From the NCBI GenBank assembly GCA_001603275.1, contig LUYM01000020.1, forward strand, positions 211,668 to 275,667: a stretch of 64,000 nt of DNA, in the 5' to 3' direction. Under the pieces are notes generated by a model. It was not told the origin of the DNA. It ran no database searches and was given only the letters and a program-made list of their open reading frames with translations. The translations under genes were made by a program, and so were the position numbers. Origin of the DNA: Actinomycetales bacterium Actino_02 (lineage in GTDB: Bacteria; Actinomycetota; Actinomycetes; Propionibacteriales; Propionibacteriaceae). Shown in pieces: positions 51,277-54,929 of the stretch (positions are counted from its first letter, which is position 1; each line of letters starts with the position of its first letter).

Positions 51277-52080
51277 ATGTCCGGCATGGCCCATCAGGAG
51301 TTCGGCAACGGCCTGGCGCTGATTGCGGTTCACGGCTGGCCGGTCGATCACCACATCGTCCTGGGTTGTCTGGAGCCGATCTTCTCCGACCGGCCCGGCT
51401 ACCGGCGGATCTACCCCGATCTGCCAGGCCTGGGCGCCTCGCCCGGCGATCAGGTGGCCAGCTCCGACGACGTGCTGGAGGCACTGGACTCCTTCATCGA
51501 GGAGCAGCTGGGCACTGAGCCGTTCCTGCTGGTCGGGGAGTCCTACGGCGGTCTGCTGGCGCGCTCGATTGTGAACCGCCGACCCACCCAAGTGCGAGGG
51601 GTTGCGCTGATCTGCCCCTCCTCCGGTCTGCCTCACGCCGAGCGGACCCTGCCGGCGCTGCAGGTGCTGCGCCGTGAGCCCGGCGCGCTCGATGGGCTGT
51701 CGGCGGAGCTGACCGCGAACTTCACCGGACTGGCTGTGGTGCACACCCAGGAGGCGGTCCGCCGTTTCCTGGCCGAGGTCCAGCCCGGCCTGGCCGCCGC
51801 TGACCCCGAGACCGTCCAGCGCGTGGAGGCCGACTATGCGCTCAGTGTTGATCCGGACCGTGATCAGCCGGCGTTCCTGGGGCCGTCGCTGATCCTGCTC
51901 GGCCGCCAGGACATCGCGGTGGGCTATCACGATCAGTTGGCCCTGCTCGAGCGCTATCCGCACGCCTCGCTGGCCGTGTTGGACGTGGCCGGCCACAACC
52001 TGCAGATCGAGCAGCCGGCCCTGTTCGCCGCGCTGGTCGGCGAGTGGCTGGATCGGGTCGAGGCGGACGGCCAGGATTGA
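51277..52080 (+). CDS. Alpha/beta-fold hydrolase under a LexA box
   Basis: Single-domain alpha/beta hydrolase of 267 aa without a signal peptide. The oxyanion strand is AVHGWPVDHHIVLG, the nucleophile elbow GESYGG (serine near residue 89), the acid probably in LLGRQDIAVG, and the catalytic histidine in DVAGHNLQIEQP. The substrate cannot be inferred; epoxide-hydrolase, esterase and haloalkane types share this outline. ATG 51277 has GAGGAG upstream. The promoter carries a perfect SOS box. An ABC-F gene with a regulatory leader follows, with no terminator between. Confidence 0.85.
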   Translation: MSGMAHQEFGNGLALIAVHGWPVDHHIVLGCLEPIFSDRPGYRRIYPDLPGLGASPGDQVASSDDVLEALDSFIEEQLGTEPFLLVGESYGGLLARSIVNRRPTQVRGVALICPSSGLPHAERTLPALQVLRREPGALDGLSAELTANFTGLAVVHTQEAVRRFLAEVQPGLAAADPETVQRVEADYALSVDPDRDQPAFLGPSLILLGRQDIAVGYHDQLALLERYPHASLAVLDVAGHNLQIEQPALFAALVGEWLDRVEADGQD

Positions 52081-52116
52081 CCGCCAGTTTGCCGATGGCG
52101 TCCGAGGAGGTGCACC

Positions 52117-52149
52117 ATGGCAGCGGTATCCCCGATTGATCGAGGTTGA
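52117..52149 (+). CDS. Leader peptide 1 of the ABC-F gene (putative)
   Basis: A 10-codon frame, MAAVSPIDRG then TGA, with a very strong ribosome-binding site GAGGAGG (52104-52110) 6 nt before the ATG. Such a good site on so short a frame suggests it is really translated. Leader peptide 2 begins 1 nt after its stop. Confidence 0.5.
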   Translation: MAAVSPIDRG

Positions 52150-52150
52150 G

Positions 52151-52189
52151 ATGTACACAGACTCCAGTTCAGCTGCCACCCAGCGCTGA
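52151..52189 (+). CDS. Leader peptide 2 of the ABC-F gene (putative)
   Basis: A 12-codon frame, MYTDSSSAATQR then TGA, starting 1 nt after leader 1 stops and preceded by GAGG (52142-52145). Codons 4-5 (GACTCC) form segment 1 of the downstream pairing system. A ribosome paused here would change the folding of the rest of the leader. Confidence 0.5.
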   Translation: MYTDSSSAATQR

Positions 52190-52240
52190 CCTGTCGAGTC
52201 CTGCTGGACTCCGGGCGCAGCGCGCTGATCGAGGAGTCCA
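52160..52240 (+). promoter_or_regulatory. Putative translational attenuator of the ABC-F gene
   Basis: Four complementary segments: 1 GACTCC (52160-52165), 2 GAGTCC (52196-52201), 3 TGGACTCC (52205-52212), 4 GGAGTCCA (52233-52240). 1 can pair with 2 (5 bp), 2 with 3 (6 bp, 4-nt loop) and 3 with 4 (8 bp). Segment 4 overlaps the ABC-F ribosome-binding site GAGGAG (52231-52236), so 3:4 hides it and 2:3 frees it. Confidence 0.6.
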
Positions 52241-52243
52241 TTC

Positions 52244-53839
52244 ATGCTTCATCCCACAACCGTCCTTGAGGACGTCTCTTTCGCCTGGTCCGACGGCCGG
52301 ATGGTGCTCGACGCGGCCTCGGCGAGCCTGACTGGCCGAGCCGGGCTGATCGGGTCCAACGGAGCCGGGAAGTCCACCCTGCTGCGGCTGATCGCCGGTG
52401 ACCTGCGCCCCGACGCGGGACGGCTCCACGTGGCCGGACGCGTGGGCCTGCTGCCCCAACACCTGGTGCTCCAGGCTGAACGACGTGTGGTCGACCTGCT
52501 CGGCCTCGGGCGCCAGCTCGATGCGCTGCGCGCGATCGAGGCCGGATCGAGCGACCCGATCCACTACGACCAATTGGGCGATGCCTGGGATGTCGAGACC
52601 CGAGCCGCCGCGGCGCTGGCGGCAGCGGGTCTGGATCGGCTGGGTCTGGATCGGCCGGTGGGCACTCTGTCCGGCGGCGAAGTCATGCTGGTCGCCATCA
52701 CCGGGTTGCGGGCGTCCCGGCCGGCGCTGGCGCTGCTGGACGAGCCGACCAACAACCTCGACACCCGGGCCAAGGGCGCGCTGCGCGAGGTGCTCGCCGA
52801 CTGGCCCGGTTCGCTGATTGTGGTCAGCCATGATCTGCCGCTGCTGCGGACGATGGAGCAGATTGTCGAGCTCGACCGTGGCCGGCTCAGCGTGTATGGG
52901 GGCGGCTACGACGAGTTCCGCGCCCAGCGGGAGCGGGAGCAGGCGGCTGCGGAGCAGGCCGTGGCCACCGCGCGACAGGTGCTGCGGGTCGAGCAGCGGC
53001 AGCGGATCGAGGCTGAGACCCGGCTGGCGCGTAGTGCCCGCAAGGGACGCAAGGATCGGGCGAACTCGACCTTTATCGGCGCCATGGCCGATGAGCGCCG
53101 GAGGCAGGCCCAACAGACTGCGGGCAAGGTTCGCGGCACCCTGGACGACAAGGTGATCCAGGCCGAAGAACGTCTTGCCGAGGCCGAACAGCAGCTGCGT
53201 CCGATCAGCGAACTCAGCGTCGAGCTTCCCGATCCGCACCTGGGCTCGGGGCGTCGGCTGGCTGAACTCCGTGATCCCGACCACAGCTGGATCATCGCCG
53301 GGCCACAACGTGTCGCGCTCCGTGGTGACAACGGGATCGGCAAGACGCGGCTGCTGGAGACCCTGTTCGCCCCGGCCCCGGACGCGCCGCTGCAGGCTCG
53401 GCCGCTGGCTGAGCGGATCGGCTATCTGCCACAGCGATTGGACGATCTGGACGACCAGAGGTCGGTGCTGGCCAACGTGGCATCGTCCGCGCCGCACCGC
53501 GTCAGCGCCGAGATTCGGGCGCAGTTGGCCGGATTCGGGCTGCGCGGTGCTGCCGTGGACCGGCCGGTGGCAACCCTGTCGGGAGGGGAGCGGTTCACGG
53601 TGGTGCTGGCTCGGCTACTGCTGGCCGATCCGGCGCCCCAACTGGTCGTGCTCGACGAACCGACCAACAACTTGGATCTGCAGCGGGTGGACGGACTCGT
53701 CGCTGCTCTGAATCGCTATCGCGGTGGGCTGCTGGTAGTCAGTCACGATCCCGAGTTCCTGGCCAGGATCATGATCGACACCTGGCTCGAATTGGTGCCC
53801 GGGCCGGACGGTCCGCGGCTCAGCCAGCGCTGGGACTGA
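52244..53839 (+). CDS. ABC-F family ATPase (possible ribosome-protection factor)
   Basis: Soluble protein of 531 aa with two ABC domains and no membrane part. Domain 1: Walker A GSNGAGKST (about 38-46), LSGGE, LLDEPTNNLD. A charged inter-domain linker (about 215-330) contains long helices, as in ribosome-binding ABC-F proteins. Domain 2: GDNGIGKT, LSGGERF, VVLDEPTNNLD. ABC-F members either tune translation or displace antibiotics from the ribosome. The elaborate leader with two tiny ORFs is typical of inducible resistance members. The drug class cannot be read. ATG 52244 has GAGGAG upstream. Its end overlaps the convergent LOG gene by 20 bp. Confidence 0.9.
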   Translation: MLHPTTVLEDVSFAWSDGRMVLDAASASLTGRAGLIGSNGAGKSTLLRLIAGDLRPDAGRLHVAGRVGLLPQHLVLQAERRVVDLLGLGRQLDALRAIEAGSSDPIHYDQLGDAWDVETRAAAALAAAGLDRLGLDRPVGTLSGGEVMLVAITGLRASRPALALLDEPTNNLDTRAKGALREVLADWPGSLIVVSHDLPLLRTMEQIVELDRGRLSVYGGGYDEFRAQREREQAAAEQAVATARQVLRVEQRQRIEAETRLARSARKGRKDRANSTFIGAMADERRRQAQQTAGKVRGTLDDKVIQAEERLAEAEQQLRPISELSVELPDPHLGSGRRLAELRDPDHSWIIAGPQRVALRGDNGIGKTRLLETLFAPAPDAPLQARPLAERIGYLPQRLDDLDDQRSVLANVASSAPHRVSAEIRAQLAGFGLRGAAVDRPVATLSGGERFTVVLARLLLADPAPQLVVLDEPTNNLDLQRVDGLVAALNRYRGGLLVVSHDPEFLARIMIDTWLELVPGPDGPRLSQRWD

Positions 53840-54929
53840 CCGGGCCGATCAGCGCCGGGATCTCGGCCACATCGTCGACCAGGTGGATCCCGGCGGCCAG
53901 CGGACGCCCCTGCGCCAGTGCGGTGAGCAGCGGCCAGGCCGGCACGGTCGTGGTCCAGTACTCGACGCCGACCAGGATCAGCGGCGGGATCGGGCCGGTG
54001 CTGGCGTAGTAGCGCGGCGTGACCGCCTGGAAGATCTCCTGGACGGTCCCGGCCGCGCCGGCCAGGCACACCAGCCCGGCCGAGGCGTGGCGCAGCAGGA
54101 CGTCCTCGCGGATCGCGTTGGAGAAGAGCTTGGCCGAGCCCCGGCAGAAGACATTGGGCGGCTCGTGGCCGTACAGCCAGGTCGGCACGCCGTAGCTGGG
54201 GCCGGTCAAGGCCTGTCCCTCGGTCACCGCGAGAGCCGACAGCGCCCACGGCTCGATGGCGTCGTGGAAGCTCGGCACTGCGGCCAGGGCGACGATGGCC
54301 GGCTCGAGGTCGACATCGGTCGGTAGCGCAGCGCCCAGGTTCACTGCCTCCATGGCGCCGGGGCCGCCACCGGTGAGCACCGGGTGGCCGTCGGCCACCA
54401 GCGCGCGACCCAGTTGGGCGGCGGCAGCGTAGCCGGCGCTGCCGCGCTCGAGAGCGTGTCCGCCCATCACTCCGACCGCACCGACCAGCGCCAGATCGTC
54501 CAGGGCTTCGGTGATGGCGTGGTCGTGCAGAGTCATGGCCAGCTCGCTGGTCAGGCTCCGCTGGGTGCCAACATGGCGCCACCAACGGTAGGTGCGGGCG
54601 TCCAGGGTGTAGCGGTAGCCGCGCTCCAGGCCGGCATACAGCTCGGCGGGCCGATACAGGCCGGTCCGGTACGGCTCGAAGGGGAGATCCGGCAAGTCCG
54701 GGAAGACCAAGGCTCCTCTGGCCTCGATAGCGGCCTCGACGCCGGGCCCGAAGGTGCAACCCAGGAATACCGCTCGGGTGACGTCGGCGTTCAGCAGGGC
54801 GTCCCCACGCTCGGTCAGATCGAGTGCTTGCAGGTAGCACCCGACCAGCGAGCCGCTGCTCAGCTGAGCGTCGAACTGGGCAAGAGTCTCGATCTCGGCC
54901 CCGTCTGTTGGCTGTGAGCCGTGCTCCAC
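53820..54929 (-). CDS. LOG-family Rossmann-fold protein
   Basis: Protein of 369 aa of the lysine-decarboxylase-like LOG superfamily. The N-terminal third (about 1-140) is extra to the short LOG enzymes. The Rossmann part has VGAVGVMGGHALERGS, then VLTGGGPGAMEAVNLGA. The second motif, normally PGGxGTxxE, reads AGAAGTVQE, keeping G, T and E but not the leading PGG. LOG enzymes release cytokinin-like bases or cleave nucleotide phosphoribosides; activity here is uncertain. GTG 54927-54929 has GGAGGAGC upstream on the minus strand. Confidence 0.78.
   Translation of the reverse strand: MEHGSQPTDGAEIETLAQFDAQLSSGSLVGCYLQALDLTERGDALLNADVTRAVFLGCTFGPGVEAAIEARGALVFPDLPDLPFEPYRTGLYRPAELYAGLERGYRYTLDARTYRWWRHVGTQRSLTSELAMTLHDHAITEALDDLALVGAVGVMGGHALERGSAGYAAAAQLGRALVADGHPVLTGGGPGAMEAVNLGAALPTDVDLEPAIVALAAVPSFHDAIEPWALSALAVTEGQALTGPSYGVPTWLYGHEPPNVFCRGSAKLFSNAIREDVLLRHASAGLVCLAGAAGTVQEIFQAVTPRYYASTGPIPPLILVGVEYWTTTVPAWPLLTALAQGRPLAAGIHLVDDVAEIPALIGPVSPSAG

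Follow-up and report, generated by a model that had tools for sequence, protein, structure and literature searches.

The leader of an ABC-F gene in Actinomycetales bacterium Actino_02 (Propionibacteriaceae; GCA_001603275.1, contig LUYM01000020.1) raises the question of whether a ribosome on a short upstream reading frame decides if the gene is translated, and of how many such reading frames take part. In attenuators of the trp and ermC types, four segments form mutually exclusive hairpins, and the position of the ribosome decides between them. The first-pass annotation of the stretch analyzed here (the window; 64,000 nt, positions 211,668-275,667 of the forward strand) had proposed a switch of this type with two coupled leader peptides, and the elements on which it was built, ORF1, ORF2, and segments 1 to 4, are indeed present in the sequence (Table 1). 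Comparison with relatives and RNA folding argue for a modified version. The leader is probably a ribosome-mediated translational attenuator with ORF2 as its single leader peptide, in which finishing the peptide would close, and an early stall would open, the start of the ABC-F gene.

Table 1. Coordinates of the ABC-F gene and of the elements of its leader in the window.
Feature	Position	Strand	Basis or remark
Likely -35 box, TTGCCG	52089..52094	+	TTGN3-N16-19-[CT]AN3T pair in 7/7 close relatives
Likely -10 box, CACCAT	52113..52118	+	Same promoter-like pair; overlaps the ORF1 ATG (52117)
ORF1, MAAVSPIDRG, behind GAGGAGG	52117-52149	+	Read from the sequence; rejected as leader peptide
ORF2 (uORF), leader peptide MYTDSSSAATQR	52151..52189	+	uORF in 42/43 R1-matching leaders
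Segment 1, GACTCC	52160..52165	+	Predicted pairing with 52233-52238 when the ribosome is absent
Strand E, CGC TGA, last sense codon and stop of the uORF	52184..52189	+	Pairs with M
Segment 2, GAGTCC, antisequestor 5' arm	52196..52201	+	Covariation and folding
Segment 3, TGGACTCC, arm common to antisequestor and sequestor	52205..52212	+	Covariation, SD-helix count, folding
Strand M, CAGCG, partner of E or, in relatives, of N	52218..52222	+	Three-way covariation
Strand N, GCTGA	52224..52228	+	M:N helix, 90.1% of cells paired
ABC-F ribosome-binding site GAGGAG (52231-52236) with segment 4 (sequestor 3' arm)	52231..52240	+	SD-helix count, folding
Segment 4, GGAGTCCA	52233-52240	+	Read from the sequence
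ABC-F family ATPase, 531 aa	52244..53839	+	Two ABC_tran stretches; structure model; fold matches

The protein encoded behind this leader combines two ABC domains with long helices between them (residues 222-274 and 279-317 of the predicted structure, mean pLDDT 89.5), and the fold matches of the model are ribosome-bound ABC-F proteins; the same pattern also suits ABC-F proteins that are not resistance factors, such as EttA. Among the 25 best NCBIfam families listed, no curated cut-off is passed, the top score being that of ribo_prot_ABC_F (305.3, with a cut-off of 380). The actinobacterial ABC-F groups AAF1-5 are predicted resistance factors (PMC6723617). A SLOG/lysine-decarboxylase-like gene (53820-54929, reverse strand) is convergent with the ABC-F gene, the two ends overlapping by 20 nt.

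Relatives from the genus Propionicimonas, from its family and from other Actinomycetes were compared. In a seed alignment of 13 leaders (A2), which begin at the uORF end, extend to the ABC-F start and were chosen for their clear anchor, the structure tested was the pairing of segment 2 with segment 3 plus an outer helix between CGCTGA (strand E) and CAGCG (strand M). In this alignment, 91.0% of the cells are paired and 11 show two-sided changes, and none of 500 shuffles reaches either value; two of the five measures do not beat the shuffles, namely pairs changed on both sides (3, reached by 140/500) and further pair types (7, reached by 299/500). The pair adjoining GAG is U-A in seven seeds; the other six have C-G. 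When 198 genomes of the family were searched with a covariance model, R1, 20 hits had E<=3e-6, every one of them directly upstream of this ABC-F gene; they comprise the 13 seeds and seven non-seeds. Its weaker hits are a mixture of true leaders (for example G116, G081, G097, and G172) and chance matches. In a run on 79 loci, R1 also found leaders outside the family, those of L236 (E 1.6e-6), L233 (2.1e-6), and L230 (6.1e-4), with L222 (0.024) as a weaker match.

Of these 79 loci, 30, picked for hitting at the leader, led to a 31-row alignment (A4). These 31 further rows, selected by R1 and fitted to it, i.e., to the structure, have 93.1% of cells paired, and two-sided changes occur in eight pairs and 24 cells (0/500 shuffles); the counts include the row of L127 (2442-2516), which is not a leader, as well as weak hits such as L222 and some others. 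The E:M helix alone has 97.5% of its cells paired in A4. The alternative helix, in which M pairs with strand N just before the ribosome-binding site, has 90.1% of cells paired and 13 cells changed on both sides (0/500 shuffles), three pairs changed on both sides (11/500) and four further pair types, the last not beyond shuffles (180/500). Over 30 rows, the E-M-N triple reads T-A-T in 17, T-G-C in six, C-G-C in four, and otherwise in three, so that one base of M covaries with both its E and its N partner. A helix of at least six pairs over the Shine-Dalgarno sequence (SD) can be drawn in 29 of 39 matching leaders, a count made without a shuffle control. The alternative pairing of the middle stretch is thus supported by comparison of the aligned leaders. 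In the window, M and N are separated by just 1 nt, and the nested hairpin is therefore shifted there.

A second test, independent of R1, dispensed with alignment. From 99 loci, 97 were carried forward (L012 and L153 being without a gene start, and the leader of L113 being read from L210), and the CGCTGA anchor was found in 48 of the 96 relatives' leaders, compared with a shuffled mean of 14.6 (sd 3.8). Only these 48 anchored leaders were scored, the 48 anchorless ones being excluded. The pairing of the uORF end with the middle stretch beats shuffles (p<0.05) in 33/48 and, in a repeat run, in 32/48; that of the middle stretch with the SD does so in 19/48 and 21/48, and both do in 19/48 in the repeat. 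At 178 control anchors of the same loci, the corresponding numbers are 14, 20, and 4. The negative control, pairing of the uORF with the middle stretch, beats shuffles in none of the 48 anchored leaders. Pairing of the uORF with its own end (12/48) or with the SD (7/48) is not strongly kept in relatives. The competing 2:3 and 3:4 hairpins that the first-pass annotation had placed before the ABC-F gene are kept by two-sided changes and also beat shuffles without an alignment. Its segment 4 covers four of the six bases of GAGGAG.

The same relatives bear on the reading frame. By a fixed rule, a uORF is present in 42 of 43 R1-matching leader rows vs. 15 of 183 control anchors, and a ribosome-binding match of at least 4 accompanies 37 of these 42 (controls, 6/183). 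Judged by this conservation, ORF2 is a leader peptide, as had been proposed. Loss of the reading frames or of the complementary segments from relatives that keep the gene had been named as the outcome that would speak against the switch, and the comparison favored ORF2, 2:3, and 3:4. The earlier reading had overlooked that the end of the uORF is itself part of the antisequestor: the last codon and the stop pair with the middle strand; the other partner of this strand is the stretch before the ABC-F start. Strand E supplies the TGA with which the uORF ends in 25/43 leaders vs. 3/183 controls. The stop lies 10-11 nt before that TGA in 15/43 vs. 0/183 (L180, assigned by an alternative ORF, is doubtful in this class) and later than strand E in two; in the remaining leader, that of L009, no uORF stop was found near strand E. 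In the earlier-stop class, E no longer serves as the stop and is nevertheless kept, as predicted if the end of the uORF has an RNA-pairing role; every one of the eight rows with a core other than CGC[TC]GA is in this class. Given the usual size of its footprint, a ribosome at the termination step would sit over E in either stop class.

How the strands could be exchanged was examined by folding the RNA that a ribosome leaves free, the ribosome being taken to mask 16 nt past the first base of its P-site codon, in line with its usual footprint. The stretch 52151-52250 folds with -40.7 kcal/mol, a value equaled by two of 200 dinucleotide shuffles (z -2.76). In the proposed mechanism, the middle stretch (52205-52222) would pair either upstream, with E and segment 2, or downstream, with N and segment 4. 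When no ribosome is present, segments 1 and 4 are predicted to pair and to enclose the 2:3/E:M hairpin, closing the site; for a transcript ending at 52246, the probabilities are 0.99 for 2:3 with E:M, 0.99 for 1:4, and 0.69 for SD pairing. The 1:2 hairpin, which had been expected as the partner state, has a probability of 0.00 in the window and gives way to 1:4. The leader thus resembles the trp and ermC types in its four segments, its exclusive hairpins, and the decisive position of the ribosome, and differs from them in its predicted ribosome-free state, in which 1:4 encloses 2:3, whereas theirs consists of 1:2 together with 3:4. Once at the stop codon, a ribosome would cover E and segment 2, and 3:4 would then form and close the site; for the same transcript, 3:4 reaches 0.97 (SD pairing 0.63) with stalls at codons 11-12 and 0.69-0.85 at codons 7-10. 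A ribosome stalled at codons 1-6 would instead cover segment 1 and leave 2:3/E:M in place, releasing segment 4; here 2:3 has 0.98-0.99, 3:4 has 0.00-0.02, and SD pairing falls to 0.28-0.41. The natural cause of such a stall may be a drug that halts early elongation, and the ABC-F protein might then relieve the stall.

Inclusion of 22 nt of coding sequence (transcript to 52268) changes part of this picture. Stalls at codons 1-7 keep 2:3 (0.98-1.00), those at codons 8-10 are mixed (3:4 0.26-0.35), so that codons 7-10 no longer close cleanly, and those at codons 11-12 close (0.92-0.98). At stalled codons 1-6, however, the SD now pairs with the coding sequence (0.77-0.85), above its value at the last codon (0.63), and this is evidence against a simple opening. 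Among 33 leaders, the sequestor outweighs the antisequestor at the last codon in 32, and the antisequestor is favored at equilibrium in 13 with a stall at the start codon; from the early stall to the last codon, sequestor pairing rises by at least two pairs in 13 and falls in none. While the SD is still untranscribed, the antisequestor has at least five expected pairs in 32 of the 33. Pairing of the SD with any partner hardly depends on the state (means 0.83, 0.85, and 0.87), and it is lower early than at the stop by more than 0.2 in two leaders. The claim that an early stall in ORF2 frees the start site therefore divides, 2:3 being kept at codons 1-6 and the SD being no freer once coding sequence is included. 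Since the folding with coding sequence shows no freer SD, the opening step is a weak prediction of the folding model, and in many relatives it would depend on co-transcriptional timing.

In a different account, ORF1 and ORF2 would both be translated, in a coupled manner, and the hairpin of the closed state would be 1:2. Both frames exist, ORF2 begins 1 nt past ORF1 (with GAGG at 52142-52145), the better ribosome-binding sequence belongs to ORF1, and the 12 of 48 leaders in which the uORF pairs with its own end beyond shuffles would suit this account; the region upstream of ORF2 does not. In the window as well as in the six close relatives compared (L002, L003, L031, L004, L009, and L008), a TTGN3-N16-19-[CT]AN3T pair precedes the uORF, thus in all seven (300 shuffles, mean 0.33, none reaching 7), and it does so in 24 of the 59 leaders whose uORF start was read from the sequence (by pattern in L009; 100 shuffles, mean 1.5, maximum 7), while a strict sigma-70 consensus scan found no promoter. 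From the spacing of these boxes and the comparison, transcription is predicted to start at about 52125-52127, some 25 nt upstream of ORF2. In six of the seven, an ATG is again present at the ORF1 site as part of the -10 box; among the six relatives, L002 alone keeps the ORF1 peptide and its stop, and it has another sequence in place of GAGGAGG. With its start codon inside the likely -10 box and its peptide so little kept, ORF1 was rejected as a leader peptide; it is judged to sit in the promoter and to play no role in the switch. Because ORF1 lies in the likely promoter, the tandem of coupled peptides is not supported, and the second peptide of the first-pass annotation is likely not real. Given also the absence of 1:2 from the predicted fold, coupling of two peptides is very improbable.

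Regulation could also act on transcription, with the hairpins deciding whether RNA polymerase continues and 3:4 serving as a terminator. This is what the reports on known actinobacterial ABC-F leaders would suggest, since those have been described as terminator/antiterminator switches (PMC8546547, PMC12421871), but no U-tract terminator is found at the switch, the sole terminator-like site in 51900-52400 being a five-pair stem at 52261-52274 inside the gene, and the position of segment 4 over the ribosome-binding site fits translational control instead; transcriptional attenuation is accordingly unlikely here. The stem at 52261-52274 is a weak hairpin with a T-rich tail, within the first ABC-F codons. 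The four Ser codons of ORF2, together with the Ser-rich peptides of L002, L003, and L008, would agree with an amino-acid attenuator that senses the charging of serine tRNA and not a drug; other leaders bear the switch with peptides without any Ser codon (MTDLIGTAPLR, MTDLVGTAPLR, and MKLLVLR), and such a sensor has hardly any likelihood. Equally remote is a fixed structure that merely sets low expression, the uORF being translated without regulatory effect: SD pairing at equilibrium is high in every simulated state, as this would require, but the three-way covariation of M with E and N is not expected from one fold. A translational attenuator with the single leader peptide ORF2 thus remains the preferred reading.

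Several known systems offer comparisons. Ribosome-mediated attenuation of ABC-F genes is established in Streptomyces for lmrC, tiaA, and are5sc; of these, lmrC has been reported to act by transcriptional attenuation, and the same has been proposed for the other two (PMC8546547, PMC12421871). As here, a short uORF precedes the ABC-F gene, alternative RNA structures exist, and the ribosome stalls at the uORF (PMC12421871, PMC8546547); as described, these leaders differ in being terminator/antiterminator leaders and in their peptides (MVGDDDISG, MLV). For cplR of Clostridioides difficile, attenuation is both translational and transcriptional, and at its uORF, as at those of vmlR, vmlR2, and lsaA, stalling controls an SD-sequestering hairpin, as would be the case here (PMC10201436). 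This group has uORFs of three or four residues (MRI and others) and a U-tract terminator, whereas the uORFs of the matching leaders here encode 8-16 residues and no U-tract was found. In msrD, an ABC-F gene is likewise under a drug-sensing leader peptide (msrDL, MYLIFM), drug sensing being presumed in our case; a stall at the stop codon induces msrD (PMC10314930), the opposite of the closure predicted here. The two leader peptides reported before the resistance gene ermB (PMC8274638) form a layout unlike the present one, in which ORF1 is unsupported. The leader probably works like the known ABC-F attenuators.

Other leaders of ABC-F genes appeared among the loci. Many of the anchorless ones (including L154, L155, L158, L162, L163, L170, L171, and L186-L191) have uORFs that are three or four codons long (MTD, MKL, MSN, MDL), and the three-codon uORFs of family leaders resemble the short uORFs reported for ABC-F genes of other bacteria. 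L026, L027, and L030, in the same genus, lie upstream of a different ABC-F gene (36-38% identical) and carry three-codon ORFs such as ATG TGG ATC TGA, behind which lies a stretch able to pair with the sequence before the ABC-F start; these are possibly a second, minimal attenuator. In L013-L015 and L017-L019 (same order, family f2), a related ABC-F gene is preceded by a conserved leader of another layout, with GGGTTGTCGAACTGAG followed by complementary stretches of the GAGATCTC type, behind a TTGAA/TANNNT-like promoter.

Rfam 15 at its gathering score gives only tmRNA in the window and nothing at the leader; when E values as high as 1 are allowed, the sole match in 52060-52260 is a 17-nt piece of a frameshift element (E 0.2). 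The literature search, whose scope excluded subscription papers and supplements, returned no description of this leader, which does not prove its absence from the literature. The comparison thus lends support to a ribosome-sensing RNA leader, without an Rfam 15 match, before ABC-F genes. We suggest, tentatively and at slightly less than even confidence, that it represents an unnamed RNA family of Actinomycetes, recurring in several families of the class, in which the uORF stop codon is a strand of the switch, strand M covaries three ways, and completion of the peptide shuts a resistance-type gene. The analysis also illustrates how comparison with relatives can distinguish a genuine leader peptide from an ORF that occurs by chance within a promoter. 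The predicted map, in which stalls at codons 1-6 induce and stalls near the stop do not, gives the element a simple meaning: if true, it would report a ribosome that began the peptide without completing it, whichever drug had stopped elongation within the first few codons.
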